Assembly: GCA_030447865.1 (NCBI GenBank)
Contig: JAUJOD010000002.1
Span: forward strand, 193,881 to 257,880
Direction: 5' to 3'
Length of the DNA stretch: 64,000 bases
Origin: Nocardioidaceae bacterium
Lineage (GTDB): Bacteria; Actinomycetota; Actinomycetes; Propionibacteriales; Nocardioidaceae
The translations under genes were made by a program, and so were the position numbers. Below the pieces are notes generated by a model that was not told where the DNA came from, did not search any database, and saw only the letters and a program-made list of their open reading frames with translations. Numbering within the stretch: the first letter of the stretch is position 1; the number at the start of each line of letters is the position of its first letter. Shown here in pieces: positions 16,600 through 32,313 of the stretch.

Positions 16600-17953
16600 A
16601 TGTTCGACATCGACTTCACCGCTCTGGACCCCGACGCCACGTTGGCGACAGCGGGCTCTGCGCGGGCGGTGGCCGAACGGGCTGAGGTGGTGGTGCTGCA
16701 AGCTGCAGCGCATTGGGCTGATCTGCACGGCATCCTCGACGTCGACCCCGACGACCCGGACGGCCGGGCGTTGCCGGGGATGGAGCAACTTGTTCAGCTG
16801 GGCGGTGACGGCACGCCGGAGGTGGCGGAGTTCGCGCCGGCGGAGCTGGGTGCGGAGTTGGCGATGTCACCGTTCGCGGCCCGGCAGCTGATCGCGGATG
16901 CGTTGGATCTGCGGCACCGCCTCCCCCGGCTGTGGGGCCGGGTGCTGGCCGGTGAAGTGAAGCCGTGGATTGGCCGCAAGACCGCCGACGCCACCCGAGC
17001 CGTCCCGGCGGACGTCGCCGCCGTGGTGGACCGGCGGGTGACGAAGTGGGCGCACTCCCTGTCGTGGGGGCGGTTGGAGAACATCATCGCCGCCGCGATC
17101 ATCGCCGCCGACCCGGTCGCGGCGGAGCAGAAGGCCCGCCAAGCGCAGCAGCAAGCAGGGCGTGTGGGTTGGTCAGTCCAGCGACCACGGCATCAAGGAC
17201 ATCTTCATCCGCACCGAGGCACCGAACGCGATCTGGTTCGACGCCAGCATCGACCGAGTCGCCGACAGCCTCGCCGCCCTGGGCGACACCGACAACAAAG
17301 ACATCCGCCGCGCACGCGCGGTCGGGGTGTTGGCGCAGCCGCAGCAGGCACTCGACCTGTTCGCCACCACCACCCGGCTGGCCGCCGGCGGCAACGCTAA
17401 CCCAGACCCGCAGACTACGACCCCCGCAGTTGGCGGCCGCGGTGTTGACGCGCGGCCACCGGCGACGCTGTACATCCATCTCAGCGCAGACTCCTTCACC
17501 CGTGACGGTGACGGGGTGGCCAGGTTCGAAGGGGTCGGCCCGGTCACCATCGACCAGGTCAAGACGTGGCTCAGGCACTGCCACGTCACCGTCAAACCAG
17601 TGATCGACCTGGCCAACCAGGCACCCGTCAACGGCTACGAAGTCCCCGACCGGCTCCGCGAAGCGATGCACCTACGCAGCCCGGTCGACGTGTTCCCCTA
17701 CGCCACCAACACCACCCGCACCAAACAAGCCGACCACTCCGACCCCTACGTCGACCCCGGCCAAGGCGGGCCACCAGGCCAAACCCGGCTCGACAACCTC
17801 GCCCCCATGGTCACCTTCCACCACCGGATCAAGACCCACAGCAGATGGCAGGTCAGACAAGTGTTCAACGGGGTCTTCGTCTGGCGATCACCCCACGGCC
17901 GACTATTCCTCGTCGACTCCACCGGCACCCACCGCGCCACAACCGCAGCCTGA
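16600..17953 (+). pseudogene. DUF222/HNH endonuclease-like gene, frameshifted
   Basis: This is a typical actinobacterial DUF222 protein with a C-terminal HNH-like domain, broken into two frames. The first part (from the ATG at 16600) gives the DUF222 helical region to about 17160. The second frame continues from about 17162 (VWVGQSSDHGIKD) through to an HNH-type end with GGPPGQTRLDNLAP, HHRIKTH and VWRSPHGR, stopping at 17953. Downstream is +1 relative to upstream, consistent with one extra base near GGGCGTG at about 17157-17163. The function of the family is unknown; copies are often numerous and associated with repeats. Confidence 0.82.
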
Positions 17954-17963
17954 CTGCGCGCCT

Positions 17964-18361
17964 CCGCTGGTCAAGGAGCGAGCTGTTCACCGCAGCCGCT
18001 GGTGCTGGGGAAACGGGCCTCATGCGCATCCTGGATGCAGCTGCAGCTCGACACCGACTCCTGCACCACTGCCACACCGTCGACATCATGCATTGGTGGG
18101 GAGCCCAACCAGGGGCTCGCCGGACGAGTTCACGTGGACGAACGCCGCTGCCGGCACCAGCGTGTTGCGAAGCCAGGATTGAGTGGCGGTCCACCCGACG
18201 GTTCGCAAGTGACGGTGACTGGGTGTCGATGGCGTTTTTCGACCGCTCCGACAGGCCACGTGGCCGAAGCCGACCGTGACCCATTCTCGAGGCAGCGCTC
18301 AATGAAGTCCGACATCGTGACGGTGTGCTGGCACGTGAACCGCTCGCTCCTTGACCAGCGG
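17964..18361. mobile_element. 398-bp element with 27-bp inverted ends (MITE-like)
   Basis: The left end 17964-17990 (CCGCTGGTCAAGGAGCGAGC, then TGTTCAC) is repeated in inverse orientation at 18335-18361, with 26 of 27 positions matching. The interior (about 344 bases) has no recognisable gene, although one frame is open from 18002 to 18382. No clear target duplication is visible. It starts 10 bases after the DUF222/HNH stop. It could be a miniature transposable element, the remains of one, or two dispersed palindromic repeats facing each other. Confidence 0.6.
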
Positions 18362-18436
18362 ATTGGATTCTCTTCGACATGATGCCATCCTTCCCAACTC
18401 AAAAGGAAGCGGCATGGAACCCGGTCAGGTTCACGG

Positions 18437-18724
18437 TCAAACATTCTGAGTGGCCATCAGCATTATCCCGCCCGCCACCATTATGGCCAGAAGCAGGAGC
18501 CCAAGGATCCGCTCTCTACCGCTTGGAGGCTTCCATCCACGGTTGCGTATGAGGATCCCCATTCCAACCAATGAAATAGCAAACAAACCCATCCCGCCAG
18601 CCGCTAAGTCCTGCCCAGGAAAGATCGCTAAAAGAAAGCCAAGACATCCCGCCATCAAACCAACTGCAATCCAGAAGACACCAACGAGCTTACACTGCTG
18701 CCGTGACCAAGTAGTCTTTAACAT
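18437..18724 (-). CDS. Small hypothetical membrane protein, AT-richer
   Basis: This 95-residue protein has three predicted membrane segments (about residues 13-33, 40-58 and 73-90) separated by a short basic loop (IRNRGWKPPSGRERIL). I do not recognise the family. An AAAGGA ribosome site precedes the ATG at 18724. Base composition is clearly lower in GC than the surroundings (31 of 60 bases in 18601-18660 by count), which suggests recent acquisition. It sits between the inverted-end element and the suf operon. Confidence 0.6.
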   Translation of the reverse strand: MLKTTWSRQQCKLVGVFWIAVGLMAGCLGFLLAIFPGQDLAAGGMGLFAISLVGMGILIRNRGWKPPSGRERILGLLLLAIMVAGGIMLMATQNV

Positions 18725-18789
18725 TCCTTTTCTCCAGCAGAAGAACGGTTACATATGCTGAGCAAAACGAGGCCATGATGTCTTCCCAA

Positions 18790-18806
18790 CCGGACTGACG
18801 GTCCGG
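18790..18806. terminator. GC-rich hairpin downstream of the suf operon
   Basis: This is a perfect six-base stem CCGGAC / GTCCGG around TGACG, extendable outward by TTCC and GGAA pairs. It lies about 130 bases beyond the sufT stop and after the start of the small membrane gene, so it could end suf transcription. There is no T-run. An 11-base direct repeat (CTGACGGTCCG) occurs at 18795 and 18892. Confidence 0.4.
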
Positions 18807-18936
18807 AAGGAGGAAAGTGGGCGTTGAGCCATACCGCAACACCACCCCCAAACGACCCTCACGTAAATCTCTCGTTTCCGCTCACAAGCACCTGACGGTC
18901 CGTACCTCTGTTGACGTTGTCCGGGCTGCTGCCCGG

Positions 18937-19302
18937 TCAGACGTTGAAGCCCAGGGCTCGCAGCATCTCGCGGCCGTCTTCGGTGATCTTGTCGGGACCC
19001 CATGGCGGCATCCACACCCAATTGATGCGGAAGTCGTTGACGAGCCCTTCCAGCGCGGTTCGCGTCTGGTCCTCGATCACGTCGGTCAACGGGCAGGCCG
19101 CCGAGGTCAGCGTCATGTCAATGGTGGCGATCCGCTCGGCGTCCAGCGCCACGTCGTAGATCAGGCCGAGGTCGACGACGTTGATCCCGAGCTCGGGGTC
19201 GACGACGTCCTTCAACGCCTCCACAACATCGTCTCGGGTCACGCCAGCGCCCGACGGCGAAAGGTCGACGTCGGGCAAATCGGTGGTGTCAGGAGTTGTC
19301 AT
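18937..19302 (-). CDS. sufT: SufT / MIP18-family metal-sulfur cluster assembly factor
   Basis: This 121-residue protein carries the MIP18/PaaD-like domain (VVDPELGINVVDLGLIYDV and LTSAACPLTDVI, with the conserved Cys). In iron-sulfur biology it helps mature or carry clusters. It is the last gene of the suf operon; the ATG at 19302 lies two bases after the sufU stop. The open frame extends to 19374, but the extension falls inside sufU. Confidence 0.9.
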   Translation of the reverse strand: MTTPDTTDLPDVDLSPSGAGVTRDDVVEALKDVVDPELGINVVDLGLIYDVALDAERIATIDMTLTSAACPLTDVIEDQTRTALEGLVNDFRINWVWMPPWGPDKITEDGREMLRALGFNV

Positions 19303-23317: not shown

Positions 23318-24732
23318 CCGACAGCCCCCTCCATCTGCAGCTCGATGAGGCGGTTCAGCTCCAGTGCGTACTCCATCGGCAGCTCCCGAGCGATCGGCTC
23401 GATGAACCCGCGCACGATCATCGCCATCGCCTCGTCCTCGGCCATGCCGCGGCTCATGAGGTAGAACAGCTGGTCGTCGCTGACCTTCGAGACCGTCGCC
23501 TCGTGACCCATCGACACGTCGTCCTCACGCACGTCGACGTACGGGTAGGTGTCGCTGCGGCTGATCTGGTCGACGAGCAACGCGTCACAGCGCACCGTGC
23601 TGGCGCTGTGGTGGGCGCCGTCGGCGACCTGGACGAGCCCTCGGTACGACGTCCGGCCGCCGCCGCGGGCGACAGACTTGGAGATGATCGAACTCATCGT
23701 GTGGGGGGCGGCGTGGACCATCTTCGCGCCGGCGTCTTGGTGCTGGCCCTCGCCAGCGAACGCGATCGACAGCGTCTCGCCCTTGGCGTGCTCACCGAGG
23801 AGGTAGACGGCGGGGTACTTCATGGTGACCTTGGAGCCGATGTTGCCATCGACCCACTCCATCGTTGCGCCGGCCTCGCAGGTCGCCCGCTTGGTCACCA
23901 GGTTGTAGACGTTGTTGGACCAGTTCTGGATCGTCGTGTAGCGGCACCGGCCGCCCTTCTTGACGATGATCTCGACGACAGCGGAGTGCAGCGAGTCGGA
24001 GCTGTAGATCGGCGCCGTGCAGCCCTCGACGTAGTGCACGTAGGCGTCCTCGTCGACGATGATCAGCGTCCGCTCGAACTGGCCCATGTTCTCGGTGTTG
24101 ATGCGGAAGTACGCCTGCAGCGGGATGTCGACGTGCACGCCCTTCGGCACGTAGATGAACGAGCCGCCGGACCAGACCGCCGTGTTGAGCGCCGCGAACT
24201 TGTTGTCGCCCACCGGGATGACCGAGCCGAAGTACTCCTTGAAGAGGTCCTCGTGCTCACGCAGGCCGGTGTCGGTGTCGAGGAAGAGGACGCCCTGCTC
24301 CTCGAGGTCCTCCCGGATCTTGTGGTAGACCACTTCGCTTTCATACTGAGCCGCCACACCGGCGACCAGGCGCTGCTTCTCGGCCTCGGGGATGCCGAGC
24401 CTGTCGTAGGTGTTCTTGATGTCCTCGGGCAGTTCCTCCCAGGAGGTTGCCTGCTGCTCCGTCGACCGGACGAAGTACTTGATGTTGTCGAAGTCGATAG
24501 CGCTCAGGTCGGAGCCCCACGTCGGCATCGGCTTGCGGCCGAAGAGCTTGAGCCCCTTCAACCGCAGCTCGAGCATCCACTCCGGCTCGCTCTTGAGGGC
24601 GGAGATGCTGCGGACGACCGACTCGTTCAGGCCCCGTTGCGCGGTTGCCCCGGCCAGGTCGGAGTCGGCCCAGCCGTACTGGTAGCGGCCGATGCCCTCA
24701 AGCTCCGGGTTCAGCTGCTCGATGGATGTCAT
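23314..24732 (-). CDS. sufB: Fe-S cluster assembly protein SufB
   Basis: SufB (472 aa) is the main scaffold subunit on which clusters are built. Conserved text includes [25 protein letters not shown] and the C-terminal [17 protein letters not shown]. No intein interrupts it, unlike some mycobacterial SufB proteins. It overlaps sufR and sufD by four bases on each side. Confidence 0.96.
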
Positions 24733-25529
24733 GAGGTGGTCCTCCCAGTAGGGCTGGATGCGGTGGCTGGTTCAGCGGTCGCTGCACCCGCGCCGACGAG
24801 GGCGCCGGCCCGCGGGATGTTCGTGGTGCAGACGCCGTCGCCGTGGGCGATGGTGGCCAGTCGTTGTACGTGACTCCCGAGCAGCCGGGCGAACACTTCG
24901 GTCTCCGCTTCGCACAGCTGTGGGAACTCGGCGGCCACGTGAGCGACCGGGCAGTGGTGTTGGCAGAGCTGGTCGCCGATCGGTGCCTCGTGCACGGACG
25001 CGGCGTAGCCGTCCTCGGTGAGGGCGCCGGCGAGCACCTGCGGGCGGTCGTCCGGAACAGCCGCCTCGACGGCTGGGCGATAGCGCTCCTCGAGCTCGGA
25101 CGTGCGGCGCCGGGCAAACTCCGTTACCGCGTCAGGTCCGCCGGTGTCCCGCAGGAACCCTAACGCGCCGATGGCCAGGTCGTCGTAGGCCTGGGTAAAG
25201 GTGTCGCGGCCGGAGTCGGTGAGCACGAAGACCTTGGCGGGCCGGCCCCGGCCACGGGTGCCGGTGACCCGGGGCTCGCGAGCGACCGCAGCGCCCGCTG
25301 CGACGAGGTGGTCCAGATGGCGCCGGACCGCAGCCGGGGTGAGCGCGAGCCGCTCGGCAAGCGCGGCGGCCGTCGACGGACCGTTCTCGAGGATCGACGC
25401 GGCGACCCGCTGCCGCGTGGGGGCGTCATCAGCTACACCGGCTGCGGCCGGGCCTAACGCTGCGGCGGCCGGTGCGGTCACCGCAACCTCCGCACCCAGC
25501 GTCGACGACACTCCCGACAAAGTTTTCAC
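24729..25529 (-). CDS. sufR: SufR-like iron-sulfur transcriptional repressor
   Basis: This is a 266-residue regulator with a winged HTH domain (about residues 38-105, [23 protein letters not shown]). A C-terminal cysteine set (Cys189, 193, 206 and 234) matches the Fe-S ligands of SufR, which represses suf when it holds a cluster. It is the first gene of the operon and overlaps sufB by four bases. The GTG at 25529 overlaps a palindrome that looks like its own operator, so the true start may be a later GTG (for example near 25510). Confidence 0.88.
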
Positions 25530-25541
25530 AACACCATTGTG
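25527..25541. promoter_or_regulatory. Candidate SufR operator
   Basis: Perfect inverted repeat CACAA-N5-TTGTG immediately at the 5' end of sufR. From memory, mycobacterial SufR recognises an inverted repeat of similar form (ACACT-N5-TGTGA) before sufR. The position fits autoregulation of the suf operon. A TTGCAG about 15 bases upstream could be part of a -35 element. Confidence 0.55.
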
Positions 25542-25655
25542 TCGTAATTCTGCAAGCGCCTCAACCGGGCTGGCCGTAACGCCCGACCGAATGGCTCACA
25601 CCTCCACGCCCGCCCCCACCCGGCGGTGGGTTCTTGGCAGTGATCTGCTTGACCA

Positions 25656-25788
25656 GTGACCGCCAGCATCATTGAAACGGGACGCACGGCGCTGCGGCCG
25701 CTCTCGGCCAGCGACGTAGATCTCATGGTCGACCTCGTCGGCGATCCGCAAGTGATGCGTTACCTGACCAACGGCAAGCAGGAAGGCA
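25656..25788 (+). pseudogene. Truncated GNAT acetyltransferase, N-terminal piece
   Basis: From the GTG at 25656 the frame encodes about 43 residues (ending QVMRYLTNGK) that read like the start of a RimJ/RimL-type GNAT acetyltransferase. After about 25785 the sequence loses this similarity and becomes AT-richer; the acetyl-CoA-binding part is missing. This looks like the break point of an insertion or deletion. Confidence 0.65.
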
Positions 25789-25959
25789 AGAGAATGAGCC
25801 ACACGACCAAGGCTCCCTGTAGTGCTCAAGGATGTGACCGTTTCCTAGTCACGTCGTCCGACTACCTGAACCCCTGTGACCGCAAATTTGCCACTTGGCA
25901 CCATGGGTGCTGCGCGGCTAGCGTCGACATCAATCGACTGAGAGGAACTGGCATGAGCA

Positions 25960-26487
25960 TTGCAAGGGTCCGCGCAGGCAACGTTCGAAAAGCAACAACG
26001 AAAAGTCGGGTGGCAATTTGCGTTCTTTATCGATATCACACTGACACCTGCGGGCGCCACCAGCGCGTCAATTGAGAGCACGGATGCAACGCCTTCGGAC
26101 TGGACATTTCCTCAGCAGCAGGCAATCACTTCGTCCGAGACGGGTCAGAGCGCTGCCGCTGTAGCTTGTTGGGGGGAGTTCACAGACCCGCGCAAGGTAA
26201 ACAACATTCTCGCCTGGGGCGGCTGGACGCAATGTAATGCTCCGGCGCAATTGTCCCTGCGAATCGTGCTACCGCGCTACAACAAGGGATGGGGGGATGT
26301 TGCGGCAGGTTATGAGTCGCGTTTTGGCCACATAGTCAATGTCTTCCGCGAGAACTCATGTGTTAGCACCGCCTCGAGAAGGTATCGCTTACGCGCTTAC
26401 CCGTTGGCAAACGGTGTGCAGCCCTACAATTCGCCTGTGATCAGCGATCCTGTTACTCTGCCCTGCAACGTCGGCAGCCTCGATTGA
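25960..26487 (+). CDS. Hypothetical, probably secreted, Cys-containing protein
   Basis: I do not recognise this 175-residue protein. A hydrophobic stretch near the start (WQFAFFIDITLTPAG, residues 18-32) is followed by a small-residue-rich segment, then a beta-like domain with four cysteines (ACWGEF, TQCNAP, NSCVST, LPCNVG), suggesting an exported disulfide domain. The TTG at 25960 lacks a well-spaced ribosome site. An ATG at 25953 with a good AGAGGA site reads only 40 codons in another frame, so a frameshift near 26005-26025 may have separated the real start from this frame. GC content is lower than in neighbours. Confidence 0.5.
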   Translation: MQGSAQATFEKQQRKVGWQFAFFIDITLTPAGATSASIESTDATPSDWTFPQQQAITSSETGQSAAAVACWGEFTDPRKVNNILAWGGWTQCNAPAQLSLRIVLPRYNKGWGDVAAGYESRFGHIVNVFRENSCVSTASRRYRLRAYPLANGVQPYNSPVISDPVTLPCNVGSLD

Positions 26488-27020
26488 CGCAAGCTACCTC
26501 GATCGTCTCGATCGCATCCCTTGACGCGGTAGTCGTACGACACGTGACGGATGCCAAGCAGGTGTCCGACTCCGCCGCGCCTGAGGCAGCGCCTGTAGCT
26601 GTGCTCGAGCAATTGCCGACTCTGAGGACTTCTGGACTTGAACATCATGCATTTACAGTGACCTCCTACTGGTACCGGTCTAAGGACGCGGTCAAGGCCC
26701 TCAATGAGGTGAGTTCAAGCGACACTGGTGAGGCCTTCGAGGTGACCGCGGCCGCCGAATTCTCCATCTTTGACGATTACCTTGCCCTCGAGCTGCCACA
26801 AATGTCTCTCGGTCTATGGGTTGTTCGGCATGTAGTCTTACAGGCATCAAACGTGGCCGAGAATACCGACCCGTCCTCCTGGTTCAAACGGGAGTGGTGG
26901 TCAGACTTTCTGGAAAAGGTGCCGTATGACGCTGGCATCACCCGCGTAGATGAACGCGCTCTTTTGGTGGCAGACGACATGGCCGAAGGATTCGTGGTGG
27001 TGGCGACGGAGGCAATCTGA
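26484..27020 (+). CDS. Hypothetical protein coupled to the preceding gene
   Basis: This 178-residue protein has no recognised domain. It begins with a TTG overlapping the preceding stop (TTGA), so the two genes form a translationally coupled pair. It is acidic, has no clear signal peptide or membrane helix, and contains two Trp-rich spots (SYWYRSK and WFKREWWSDF). Counted GC is 32 of 60 in 26641-26700, against 42 of 60 in tkt (34441-34500), so the pair looks acquired. Confidence 0.55.
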   Translation: MTQATSIVSIASLDAVVVRHVTDAKQVSDSAAPEAAPVAVLEQLPTLRTSGLEHHAFTVTSYWYRSKDAVKALNEVSSSDTGEAFEVTAAAEFSIFDDYLALELPQMSLGLWVVRHVVLQASNVAENTDPSSWFKREWWSDFLEKVPYDAGITRVDERALLVADDMAEGFVVVATEAI

Positions 27021-27268
27021 GGTGCGAAGTCGTGTACCCGCCGCGCCTGCGACCGGTGCCATAGCTTGAGCACCTGCATTGTTGATGCAATTCAACTGCG
27101 CTGATCGCCGGGAACTCCGCGTTTCGCGGTATCCATTACTTTCAGTTGATCGTCGGCGTAGCCAAGGAACTCTTGACGGGCGTAAGAAATGCCGGTGGCG
27201 TCGACGCCGAGCAGGAACGCGCTCGCTCTCTACGTTCGAGCCTCGGGTAGTCGGTTTCCGCCGAGCCG

Positions 27269-27457
27269 CTATGGCGCGGTGGTCATCGCGGGGTGAGCGG
27301 CGAGCCACCACTCGACCTCTACGGCATCCCACAACGAGTTGGCGTACTGCCGCTTCCCCGACGCTGACACGACCGGGAGAGGGAAGTCGGCTGGAGCCCG
27401 CCCCATCGTGAGGTTGAGCGCGACGATGCTACCTCGCAGAGTTCCGAGCGATGCCAT
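27269..27457 (-). CDS. Small HTH-like (excisionase/AlpA-type) ORF or remnant
   Basis: From the ATG at 27457 the frame gives 62 residues with a FPLPVVSASGKRQYANSLWD stretch followed by VEVEWWLAAHP. This resembles the wing and last helix of AlpA/MerR-like small HTH proteins (pattern FPxPV, GR, DVExW). The open frame continues upstream without a start (VGPAELMASLG), which would complete the HTH, so the gene may be 5'-truncated. It lies at the edge of the AT-richer patch and runs toward it. Confidence 0.4.
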   Translation of the reverse strand: MASLGTLRGSIVALNLTMGRAPADFPLPVVSASGKRQYANSLWDAVEVEWWLAAHPAMTTAP

Positions 27458-27526
27458 GAGTTCTGCGGGGCCGACTGAGGGATCCTGGCGGACGACGACA
27501 ACGGTACGCGACCTTAGACTCCTGTC

Positions 27527-29223: not shown

Positions 29224-30236
29224 CACCGTCGTCGTCCGCACGGTCGTCGGCACCCTCGTCGTCGACGTCCTCCTCCTCGAAACCGTCGCCGGCACCGACG
29301 TCGTGGGCGCTGCGCTCTTGGGCGCCCTCGCAGCGCGCCATGCAGCGGCTCGCCGTCGCGTTACTGATCTCGAACGTGGTCATCGTCGTGACGGGCGGCG
29401 CGGTCCGACTCACGGCCTCGGGGCTCGGGTGTCCTGCTTGGCCGCGATGCAGCGGCGAGTCGTTCGTTCCGCATGAAGCCCTCGGAGTGCATGGCGCCAT
29501 CGAGTTCGGCAACCGGATGCTCACCTTCGTGCTCGCGGCCATCGCGCTTGCCACCTGGCTGGCGGCGATCCGGATGCGGCCGCGCCGCTCCTCGCTGGTG
29601 AGGTTGAGCACCCTGCTGGCGCTCGGTATTCCGGCACAGGCCGTGCTCGGCGGCGTCACCGTGCTGACCGACCTCAACCCGTGGATCGTCGCGGGCCACC
29701 TGCTGCTGTCGTTGGCGATGGTCGCAGGGGCCGTCGTACTGGTTCGAAGGGTCGATGAACAGGACCGCCCACCTCAGCCCACGGTGCCGGCGCCGGTGGC
29801 ACTGTTGGCCAGGGCGACGTTCGGGGTCACGTGGATCGTCTTCTACCTCGGCACGGTGGTTACCGGCTCGGGTCCACACGCCGGGGATGCTGAGTCCCCG
29901 CGCACTGGGCTGGACCCGGCTATGGTCAGCCAACTGCACGCCGACTTCGTGTTCCTGCTGCTCGGGCTGACTGTCGGCACGTTGCTCGCCTTGCGCACGG
30001 TGAATGCTCCGCAGCGCGCTCAGCGAGCCGCCTGCTGGCTGCTGGCGATTGAGCTGGGTCAGGGCGTCGTGGGCTTCGCGCAGTACGTCACGGATCTGCC
30101 GATCGTGCTGGTCGGGTTGCATGTCCTTGGCGCTGCCCTGGTGAGCGCTGCCGCTGCGTGGTTGCTGGTCGGTCTGCGCGATCGCGGTCTGCACCCCTCC
30201 TCTCCTGCAAACGATCCGACGCTGAACACGCCATAA
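29214..30236 (+). CDS. ctaA: Heme A synthase, COX15/CtaA family
   Basis: This enzyme oxidises heme O to heme A for cytochrome c oxidase. After a Ser/Pro-rich N-terminus it has eight predicted membrane helices with the four conserved His positions (HGAIEFGNR, HLLLSLAM, HADFVFLLLG, HVLGAALV) and the RLTASGLGCPAWPRC motif. I chose the GTG at 29214, which has an AGGA site and overlaps the permease by 10 bases; the ATG at 29340 would give 298 residues but has no ribosome site. CtaB, the preceding enzyme of the pathway, is 3 kb downstream. Confidence 0.88.
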   Translation: MGVAPSSSARSSAPSSSTSSSSKPSPAPTSWALRSWAPSQRAMQRLAVALLISNVVIVVTGGAVRLTASGLGCPAWPRCSGESFVPHEALGVHGAIEFGNRMLTFVLAAIALATWLAAIRMRPRRSSLVRLSTLLALGIPAQAVLGGVTVLTDLNPWIVAGHLLLSLAMVAGAVVLVRRVDEQDRPPQPTVPAPVALLARATFGVTWIVFYLGTVVTGSGPHAGDAESPRTGLDPAMVSQLHADFVFLLLGLTVGTLLALRTVNAPQRAQRAACWLLAIELGQGVVGFAQYVTDLPIVLVGLHVLGAALVSAAAAWLLVGLRDRGLHPSSPANDPTLNTP

Positions 30237-30259
30237 CAAACGTGGCGTCGGATCTTTAG
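30211..30259. repeat. Palindrome at the ctaA stop, copy 1 of a flanking pair
   Basis: Arms GATCCGACGC (30213-30222) and GCGTCGGATC (30245-30254) pair perfectly, with an inner CACG/CGTG pair and the loop CCATAACAAA. The left arm encodes the last residues of CtaA. The following TTTAG is a weak T-tract, so it may serve as terminator. A related copy in the same orientation is at 31360-31408 (40 of 49 positions equal). Confidence 0.75.
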
Positions 30260-30378
30260 CTCATCCCCAGGGACTGGCGCACGTAAGGGCGTTTTCGTCC
30301 ACAGCGGCGGTTCTATCCACAGTCGACAACAATCAGCCGGGAAACCACCCAGCGGCGTTCTTGACTGAGGGCATGACC

Positions 30379-31353
30379 ATGTCAATTGAGCGCGCTGGCC
30401 CTTCACCGACCTCTGCGCACGACTGGGGTGGTATGTCTGGCGCGGCCGAGGCGGCTCGGCAGGTCGGGGTCATGACCCGCCAGGCTGCTGCTGGGACGTT
30501 CGGGCGCTCGCGTGTGTGCGCCCAACTGGCCGCGCACCGGTGGCAGGCACCAACACCCCGAGTGATTGTCCTGCACAACGGCCCGTTGACGCAGGACCAG
30601 CTGATGTGGTCGGCGTTGATGTCCGGTCCACCCGGCGCGCTGCTGCACGGACTTTCAGGCGCCCAGTACGACGGCCTGCGCGGAATGACTCCCGACCAGC
30701 TCACCGTGGTTGTCCCCGGGCATTCGCGAAACTGCAGCGGTCGGCTGAGGGAGTTCGCAGACCAGTGCGGCATCGGCCTTCGTTGGTCTACGATGCTGGG
30801 CCCCGAAGATGTCAACCCACTGAGCGTTCCACCGCGCACCAGGCTGCCTCGGAGCTTGGTCGACGCAGCCAGCGACCGAGTCGCGAAGCGACGCGCCAGG
30901 GTCATCGTGCTGGCAGGAGTGCAGCAACGCTTACTACGGCCAGTCGCCCTGTCGGAAGCCATGAGTCGCAGAGGACGCTGTCGAAACCGGGCGATCATCG
31001 CTGAGTCGATCCTCGACGCCGCCGGGGGAATCGAGTCGTTGCCTGAAGGCGACTTCAACGCCATCCGCCGCCGTCTCCGCATACCCGAGCCGCGGCGCCA
31101 GCAGATACTCCAACGGCCAGACGGCCGCTACTTCTTGGACAACGACTGGCCGGAGTTCGGCGTACGGGCTGAGATTCACGGGATACCGCACTACGAGATC
31201 CAAGACTGGGACAATGACCTACTCAGGCAGAACGACATATCGATCGAGGGCGGTGGGCTGCTGCTGTTCTCGTCGTACGCCACGCGGCACTTGCCGGACC
31301 AGGTAGGTGACCAGCTCGTCCGGATGCTGCGGCGCCGCGGCTGGTCAGGCTGA
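30379..31353 (+). CDS. DUF559/AbiEi-like protein of unknown function
   Basis: This 324-residue protein resembles the large actinobacterial group annotated as AbiEi-antitoxin-domain or DUF559 proteins. An N-terminal HTH-like part (VGVMTRQAAAGTFGRSRVCAQLAAHRWQ) is followed by SGPPGALLHGLSGAQYDGL and a C-terminal region whose RYFLDNDWPEFGVRAEIHGIPHYE and WDNDLLRQNDIS recall a restriction-endonuclease-like fold. No AbiEii-type toxin is adjacent. The ATG at 30379 has a GAGGG site seven bases upstream. It is bracketed by two related palindromes. Confidence 0.7.
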   Translation: MSIERAGPSPTSAHDWGGMSGAAEAARQVGVMTRQAAAGTFGRSRVCAQLAAHRWQAPTPRVIVLHNGPLTQDQLMWSALMSGPPGALLHGLSGAQYDGLRGMTPDQLTVVVPGHSRNCSGRLREFADQCGIGLRWSTMLGPEDVNPLSVPPRTRLPRSLVDAASDRVAKRRARVIVLAGVQQRLLRPVALSEAMSRRGRCRNRAIIAESILDAAGGIESLPEGDFNAIRRRLRIPEPRRQQILQRPDGRYFLDNDWPEFGVRAEIHGIPHYEIQDWDNDLLRQNDISIEGGGLLLFSSYATRHLPDQVGDQLVRMLRRRGWSG

Positions 31354-31359
31354 GCGGGA

Positions 31360-31408
31360 ACGATCCGACGTTCAACACGCCATAACACGCTCAGCGTCGG
31401 ATCTCTGG
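31360..31408. repeat. Palindrome after the DUF559-like gene, copy 2
   Basis: Arms GATCCGACG (31362-31370) and CGTCGGATC (31395-31403) pair perfectly; the loop holds AACACGCCATAACA, as in copy 1 at 30211-30259. It begins six bases after the stop of the DUF559-like gene. The same loop in the same orientation shows the two copies are related, not independent hairpins. Confidence 0.75.
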
Positions 31409-31488
31409 CCGGCTCCGGGCATCTGGGGGCTCAGCAGTCCATGATGGTCGTGAACCGGCAGGGCGAGTTGGCGAGAAAGGCTGACCCT

Positions 31489-32313
31489 ATGACGTTTTCC
31501 ATCGTGGCCCGCAGCGAGGACGGCAGCAGCCTAGGGGTCGCTGTCGCCTCCAAGTTCCTGGCCGTGGGATCAGCCGTACCTGCGGCACGCATGGGCGACG
31601 GCGCCATCGCCACCCAGTCATTCTGTAACACGCTCTATAAGCGAGACGGCTTGGCCATGATGTCGGCGGGCAGGTCAGCCCCTGCAACCCTGGAGGCACT
31701 GCTGGTCGATGATGACCAGCGAGAGTCCCGACAAGTCGGCATCGTGGATGCCGCTGGGAAGGCGGCTACGTTCAGCGGAGCTGACTGTCTCGATTGGGCT
31801 GGCGGTGTCAACGGACCCGGCTACGCAATCCAGGGCAACATCCTGGCCGGCCCCGACGTGGTCGAGGCGATGCAGACGGCGTTTGTCGAGTCCCATGGAA
31901 GCCAACTGCCCGAGCGGTTGGTGGAGTCACTGAAGGCCGGTGACGCTGCCGGTGGCGACCGACGAGGCAGGCAGAGCGCGGCACTCCTCGTCGTTTCTGA
32001 GACCGGTAGCTACACCCCGGGTGATGACGTGGCGTATGACCTGCGGGTCGACGACCATGCTGACCCTGTCGGCGAGCTGGGCCGGCTGCTGGCCCTGCAT
32101 CACGTTTACTTCGACCGACCGAGTGCTGATGATCTGTTGCCGCTCGAAGGCGAGCTGGCCGCCGAAGTCGGCGCCCACCTCGAGCACCTGGGTTTCCCTG
32201 ATCTTGACACCTGGGCCGGTGTCGAGAACTACGAGCTGCGCCTCTTTCCAGGAAGCATCGACAGGTTCGTCTTGACCCAGCTGCGCGAGCAGTCGGCGAG
32301 GCAGCGCCGGTGA
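31489..32313 (+). CDS. DUF1028 family protein
   Basis: This 274-residue protein has the DUF1028 hallmark at its very start (MTFSIVARSEDGSSLGVAVASKFLAVG). It belongs to the Ntn-hydrolase-like group once annotated as Zn-dependent protease or fimbrial assembly. Activity is unknown. The last 70 residues form a peptidoglycan-binding-like tail seen in some members. The ATG at 31489 follows a GAAAGG site; codons upstream to 31441 are not family-like. Confidence 0.85.
   Translation: MTFSIVARSEDGSSLGVAVASKFLAVGSAVPAARMGDGAIATQSFCNTLYKRDGLAMMSAGRSAPATLEALLVDDDQRESRQVGIVDAAGKAATFSGADCLDWAGGVNGPGYAIQGNILAGPDVVEAMQTAFVESHGSQLPERLVESLKAGDAAGGDRRGRQSAALLVVSETGSYTPGDDVAYDLRVDDHADPVGELGRLLALHHVYFDRPSADDLLPLEGELAAEVGAHLEHLGFPDLDTWAGVENYELRLFPGSIDRFVLTQLREQSARQRR

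Follow-up and report, generated by a model that had tools for sequence, protein, structure and literature searches.

The window, i.e. the whole 64-kb stretch of DNA analysed here, contains a region of AT-richer DNA located between a sufR-like regulatory gene and a gene encoding an ABC transporter ATPase. The initial annotation described this region as either a small integrated element or a two-protein accessory module. The locus therefore raises the question of whether this DNA is indeed inserted, by what route it may have reached its present position, and what is encoded by its two main ORFs.

Limits and base composition of the insertion

The insertion and the two genes that flank it are as follows:

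24729-25529, minus strand: sufR-like regulator gene; left flank, outside the insert (TIGR02702 SufR, E = 8e-24, under the curated cut-off)
25573-27497, no strand assigned: the entire lineage-specific insertion; limits accurate to approximately 10 bases, from the DNA alignment to L007
27527-28450, plus strand: ABC transporter ATPase gene; right flank, a core gene outside the insert

The insert, of approximately 1.9 kb, separates sufR (minus strand) from the ABC transporter ATPase gene (plus strand). Its limits were defined by comparison with one other genome of the same genus (L007; 70% complete), whose flanks are approximately 95% identical to those of the window on both sides. The alignment ends at position 25577 and restarts at 27499, and approximately 50 unrelated bases are found in L007 in place of the 1.9 kb. 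Judged from this alignment, the segment 25573-27497 is a lineage-specific insertion between normally adjacent genes. The view that this DNA is integrated was thus borne out, L007 and many other relatives having a short-spacer counterpart. A second stretch of the window (30059-31533; approximately 1.5 kb, located after a ctaA-like gene) is also missing from this same-genus genome, which has approximately 100 bases there. It contains a 330-codon ORF (30361-31353) with no match in Pfam.

The best two-breakpoint segmentation of the base composition delimited the region 25518-27190 (57.6% GC) from DNA of 71.0% GC on either side, with a log-likelihood ratio of 38, which confirms the AT-richer island noted initially. 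The G+C content of positions 25786-27020 is 56.8%, and the core of the insert constitutes the lowest-GC 1.4 kb of the whole window. The insert is a mosaic, composed of (i) a host-like stub of a GNAT acetyltransferase gene, (ii) the AT-richer core (57% versus 71% GC), which begins close to the GNAT cut and contains ORF1 and ORF2, and (iii) approximately 250 host-like bases. A further lower-GC stretch with short ORFs is located at 17938-19300 of the window, where 1.4-kb intervals of less than 60% GC begin.

Measured from stop to stop, the open frames of the island comprise 176 codons (ORF1) and 217 codons (ORF2). In a dinucleotide simulation of the island, both open frames of these lengths arose in 1.1% of the runs, and a longest frame of at least 217 codons in 6.6%. 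Because the chance occurrence of such frames is not especially rare in DNA of this kind, the size of ORF1 and ORF2 is, by itself, weak evidence. An additional open stretch (27098-27246), initially taken for the end of another gene, is part of a longer frame (27079-27411), the codon usage of which is not coding-like.

Ancestral state of the sufR-ABC spacer

With the ABC protein as the anchor, the spacer was surveyed in 30 genomes; one additional locus was included. In 20 genomes besides the source genome (19 further genomes of the family or order, and the same-genus one), an orthologue of sufR is divergent from the ABC gene and adjoins it. In the family and order genomes the spacer mostly measures 120-290 bases between the aligned ends, and an operator-like palindrome is retained beside sufR in the short-spacer relatives. 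Since the two genes remain divergent and adjacent in these relatives, in most cases across a short spacer, this arrangement is ancestral and the insertion derived.

The opposite polarity would make the block an ancestral feature, deleted in the relatives. It draws on the circumstance that two genomes of the genus are comparable and no more; it would, however, demand many independent losses, given the mostly short spacers of other genera and families, which keep the palindrome beside sufR, and it is at odds with the foreign composition of the block. We consider it extremely improbable. The initial annotation had allowed that relatives might carry the same block as ancestral sequence; none was found to do so, and the outgroup genomes mostly show the short spacer.

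Unrelated other genes occupy the same spacer in L027, L028 and L030. By inspection, L028 and L030 contain DinB-like ORFs, and L027 contains membrane-protein-like ORFs. These sequences suggest that the sufR-ABC spacer is a permissive site, which takes unrelated genes in different lineages.

The truncated GNAT gene

25656-25778, plus strand: 5′ stub of a GNAT acetyltransferase gene; approximately 41 codons with homology, GC3 0.80, host-like codon usage

Residues 1-41, read from position 25656, align with intact GNATs of relatives at 41-53%, and the match to PF13302 (E = 0.0015) is under the curated cut-off. The similarity ends at approximately 25778, close to the drop in GC content, and a search for the remainder of the gene within the insert found none. 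The gene is therefore truncated, as had been reported, with approximately 41 residues left. It is the homology that ends there: the GNAT frame, said to stop at about 25785, stays open to 26075. The intact GNAT gene anticipated at an empty site was not encountered, as no GNAT gene is present at the sufR-ABC site in the relatives, which places the stub within the derived insertion. Its structure suggests at least two events, in which the GNAT gene would have been brought first and cut second.

ORF1 belongs to a rare family of predicted secreted proteins

25960-26487, plus strand: ORF1, with the mature domain typical of a rare family of secreted four-Cys proteins (Cys 70, 92, 134 and 169 when read as 175 residues); a frameshift at the signal peptide is probable

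Searches with the single ORF1 sequence against Pfam, NCBIfam, PADLOC, PDB, and collections of phages, plasmids and viral contigs gave no usable match, and the species-genome scans revealed no relative. A class-wide genome search yielded a marginal match (L073; E = 0.005), and an alignment of ORF1 and L073 found four more loci (L097-L100), with E values of 1e-78 to 2e-7. When a profile was constructed from four relatives, leaving ORF1 out, it scored ORF1 at 46.8 bits (best of 5000 shuffles, 10.6 bits), and the hhalign probability is 97.6, in a test that is not fully independent, as L097-L100 were found with an alignment including ORF1.

All four Cys residues, already pointed out in the initial annotation, lie in invariant columns of the family (C70, C92, C134 and C169), which also include several glycines. 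A signal-peptide-like sequence is found at the start of L098 and L100, which are intact members. On the strength of these alignments, ORF1 holds the mature domain of a rare, predicted exported four-Cys family. No member scored above the cut-off in Pfam or NCBIfam. The family was found in 2 of 297 genomes of the class (source genome included) and in 5 of 149 genomes around G423. The statement that the two ORFs belong to no recognised family thus stands in so far as neither has a usable match in Pfam, NCBIfam, PADLOC or PDB, and falls for ORF1 in that it has relatives. AlphaFold models computed without an alignment reached pLDDT values of 47 and 33 for the two ORFs, too low for a fold search. 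A further candidate relative of ORF1, L010 (35% identity over 84 residues), was dropped, as it lacks the Cys pattern.

Frame and start of ORF1

25940-25975, plus strand: ribosome-binding-like sequence GAGAGGAA and ATG 25953, where the gene for the secreted protein probably began originally, as judged from three-frame translation

The ribosome-binding-like sequence (25940-25947) is well placed for the ATG at 25953. This ATG opens a frame that closes at 26075; the mature domain is read in the +1 frame. An in-frame TTG at 25960 is a possible start of ORF1, without a good ribosome site, while the probable original start, ATG 25953, lies in the other frame. The TTGA-coupled gene pair was not confirmed; it relies on two TTG starts devoid of a good ribosome site, the good site serving ATG 25953.

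Similar defects are present in other members of the family. In L096 and L099 the start and the mature domain are in different frames (a shift of -1), and in L097 the start is in frame and a nonsense codon is found instead. A programmed frameshift was considered and rejected, because the window has a shift of +1, L096 and L099 have one of -1, and L097 contains the nonsense codon; since the shifts are unequal and a nonsense codon also occurs, independent decay is indicated rather than a programmed event. The ORF1 gene is probably frameshifted and decaying, as far as can be read from its sequence, and the frame change near its start (around 25955-26030) could also be an assembly error. It is very improbable that ORF1 and ORF2 are intact and expressed as a novel kind of pair (a cytoplasmic partner together with an exported four-Cys protein) that has spread between genomes at permissive core-gene spacers, and in which the parting of signal peptide and mature domain by a frame change, repeated in several family members, would act as a switch and not reflect decay.

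ORF2 and the two-gene hypothesis

26484-27020, plus strand: ORF2, orphan; codon-position GC 0.63/0.43/0.65, coding-like; start uncertain

The codon-position GC values support ORF2 more than ORF1 (0.55/0.53/0.62), and ORF2 may still be translated. No relatives of ORF2 were found in 198 genomes of the family or in phage, plasmid and viral-contig collections; a scan of 84,980 species genomes for its peptide patterns revealed none either, and the best matches in 395 genomes of the class were at chance level only. A tblastn match in L092, containing a "WY" motif, pointed to a fragment of a histidine-kinase sensor; this assignment was rejected, because the profile score was 3.9 bits (best domain), compared with up to 11.2 bits for shuffled sequences.

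A functional two-gene unit, e.g. one in which a cytoplasmic partner or an immunity protein accompanies an exported protein and translation is coupled at TTGA, would agree with the 4-base overlap of the abutting ORF1 and ORF2, with the codon scores of their frames, which exceed those of other local frames, and with the presence, next to three relatives of ORF1, of an adjoining same-strand gene for a small protein, these partners being weakly alike. The small genes next to the ORF1 relatives do not, however, resemble ORF2, which is also devoid of any convincing relative in approximately 400 class genomes or by the peptide patterns, and ORF1 has no in-frame start carrying a ribosome site. Such a unit is quite unlikely. 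The two-protein module suggested initially is not supported: the ORF1 relatives have no ORF2 next door, the searches found no relatives of ORF2, and ORF1 looks frameshifted. We regard ORF2, from these comparisons, as an orphan accessory gene and not as half of a conserved pair.

The small proteins encoded beside ORF1-family genes (L131, 9261-9590; L133, 4536-5003; L134, 2021-2299) are possible partners of the latter. Two of the three pairs that they form are weakly alike (blastp E values of approximately 6e-5 to 5e-4).

Search for traces of a mobile element

27269-27457, minus strand: 62-codon ORF, "excisionase-like" in the initial annotation; neither its status as a gene nor an excisionase function is supported

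The predicted 62-residue product of the minus-strand ORF matches PHROG 2620 (excisionase) at chance level (E = 0.067). It has no match in Pfam, and nothing beyond chance was found in relatives. These results leave the proposed excisionase-like HTH protein with the PHROG match only. Among the scanned ORFs of the insert, none belongs to integrase or transposase families. No tRNA gene was found at the insert, and the search for flanking direct repeats, terminal inverted repeats and a target-site duplication revealed chance-level repeats only. With none of these hallmarks found, nor a recombinase, the description of the region as a small integrated element is not sustained.

Some relatives of ORF1 occupy variable DNA in which an integrase-like gene (L131; weak phage-integrase domain), a resolvase gene (L132; PF00239) or a serine recombinase gene (L098) lies at most several kb away, and a 1.26-kb block with an ORF1 relative has different surroundings in L131 and L132. 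This proximity, together with the foreign-looking composition of the insert, its placement between core genes and the weak PHROG match, would be expected of a remnant of a site-specific integrative element (a phage satellite or similar) that has lost its integrase and whose excisionase is encoded by the minus-strand ORF. We nevertheless hold such an origin to be unlikely, in view of the missing integrase, tRNA, and terminal or flanking repeats, the want of ORF1 and ORF2 relatives in the phage, plasmid and viral-contig collections and of minus-strand ORF relatives beyond chance, and the mosaic structure of the insert, which opens with a host-like gene stub.

L131 (7039-9662) and L132 (7938-9200 and 14190-15572) share a block with a GNAT gene and a block containing the ORF1 relative with a small upstream gene. 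The two blocks adjoin in one genome and are approximately 5 kb apart in the other, with approximately 20 bases shared at the joint. In L132, the resolvase gene (PF00239) adjoins one of these blocks.

Interpretation and comparison with known systems

The locus is probably best explained by turnover of non-self-mobile accessory DNA, already decaying, in a permissive spacer between two core genes, sufR and the ABC-ATPase gene. The DNA would have entered either via illegitimate recombination or via homologous recombination between core-gene sequences on its two sides. Its arrival probably took place in more than one step, because the host-like GNAT gene is itself cut, with only its front left. The product of ORF1 would formerly have been exported and disulphide-bonded, its N-terminal signal peptide being read from ATG 25953; a later frame change would have parted this start from the domain.

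The mechanism is an ordinary one, a small accessory insertion that contains an orphan and a member of an unnamed secreted family. Next to an iron-sulphur regulator, the locus exemplifies the turnover of accessory genes in a case that is clean, polarised and devoid of a recognisable mobile element. It also uncovered a family of small, predicted exported four-Cys proteins that neither Pfam nor NCBIfam contains and the members of which frequently seem disrupted. All members compared (L096-L100) share with ORF1 the four invariant Cys residues, C-x-G-x-F and WGG-like motifs and a C-terminal C-N. ORF1 of the window is 23-30% identical to them and differs in that its start lies in another frame and in that it lacks the extra Cys pair present in L096 and L098.

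The GNAT stub is similar to RimJ/RimL-type acetyltransferases (PF13302) in its first approximately 41 residues, which align with the intact GNATs of relatives. It differs from them in that the rest of the domain is missing, and it cannot be functional.

Half of the hotspots of gene integration have been reported to show no sign of mobile elements, and for such hotspots a double homologous recombination, taking place in the core genes on either side, has been proposed (Oliveira et al. 2017, PMC5635113). The locus described here resembles them in having lineage-specific genes between conserved flanks, no integrase, and different genes in the same spacer elsewhere. It differs from them in being a putative hotspot rather than a statistically defined one; the enlargement of 4 of approximately 20 spacers is suggestive.
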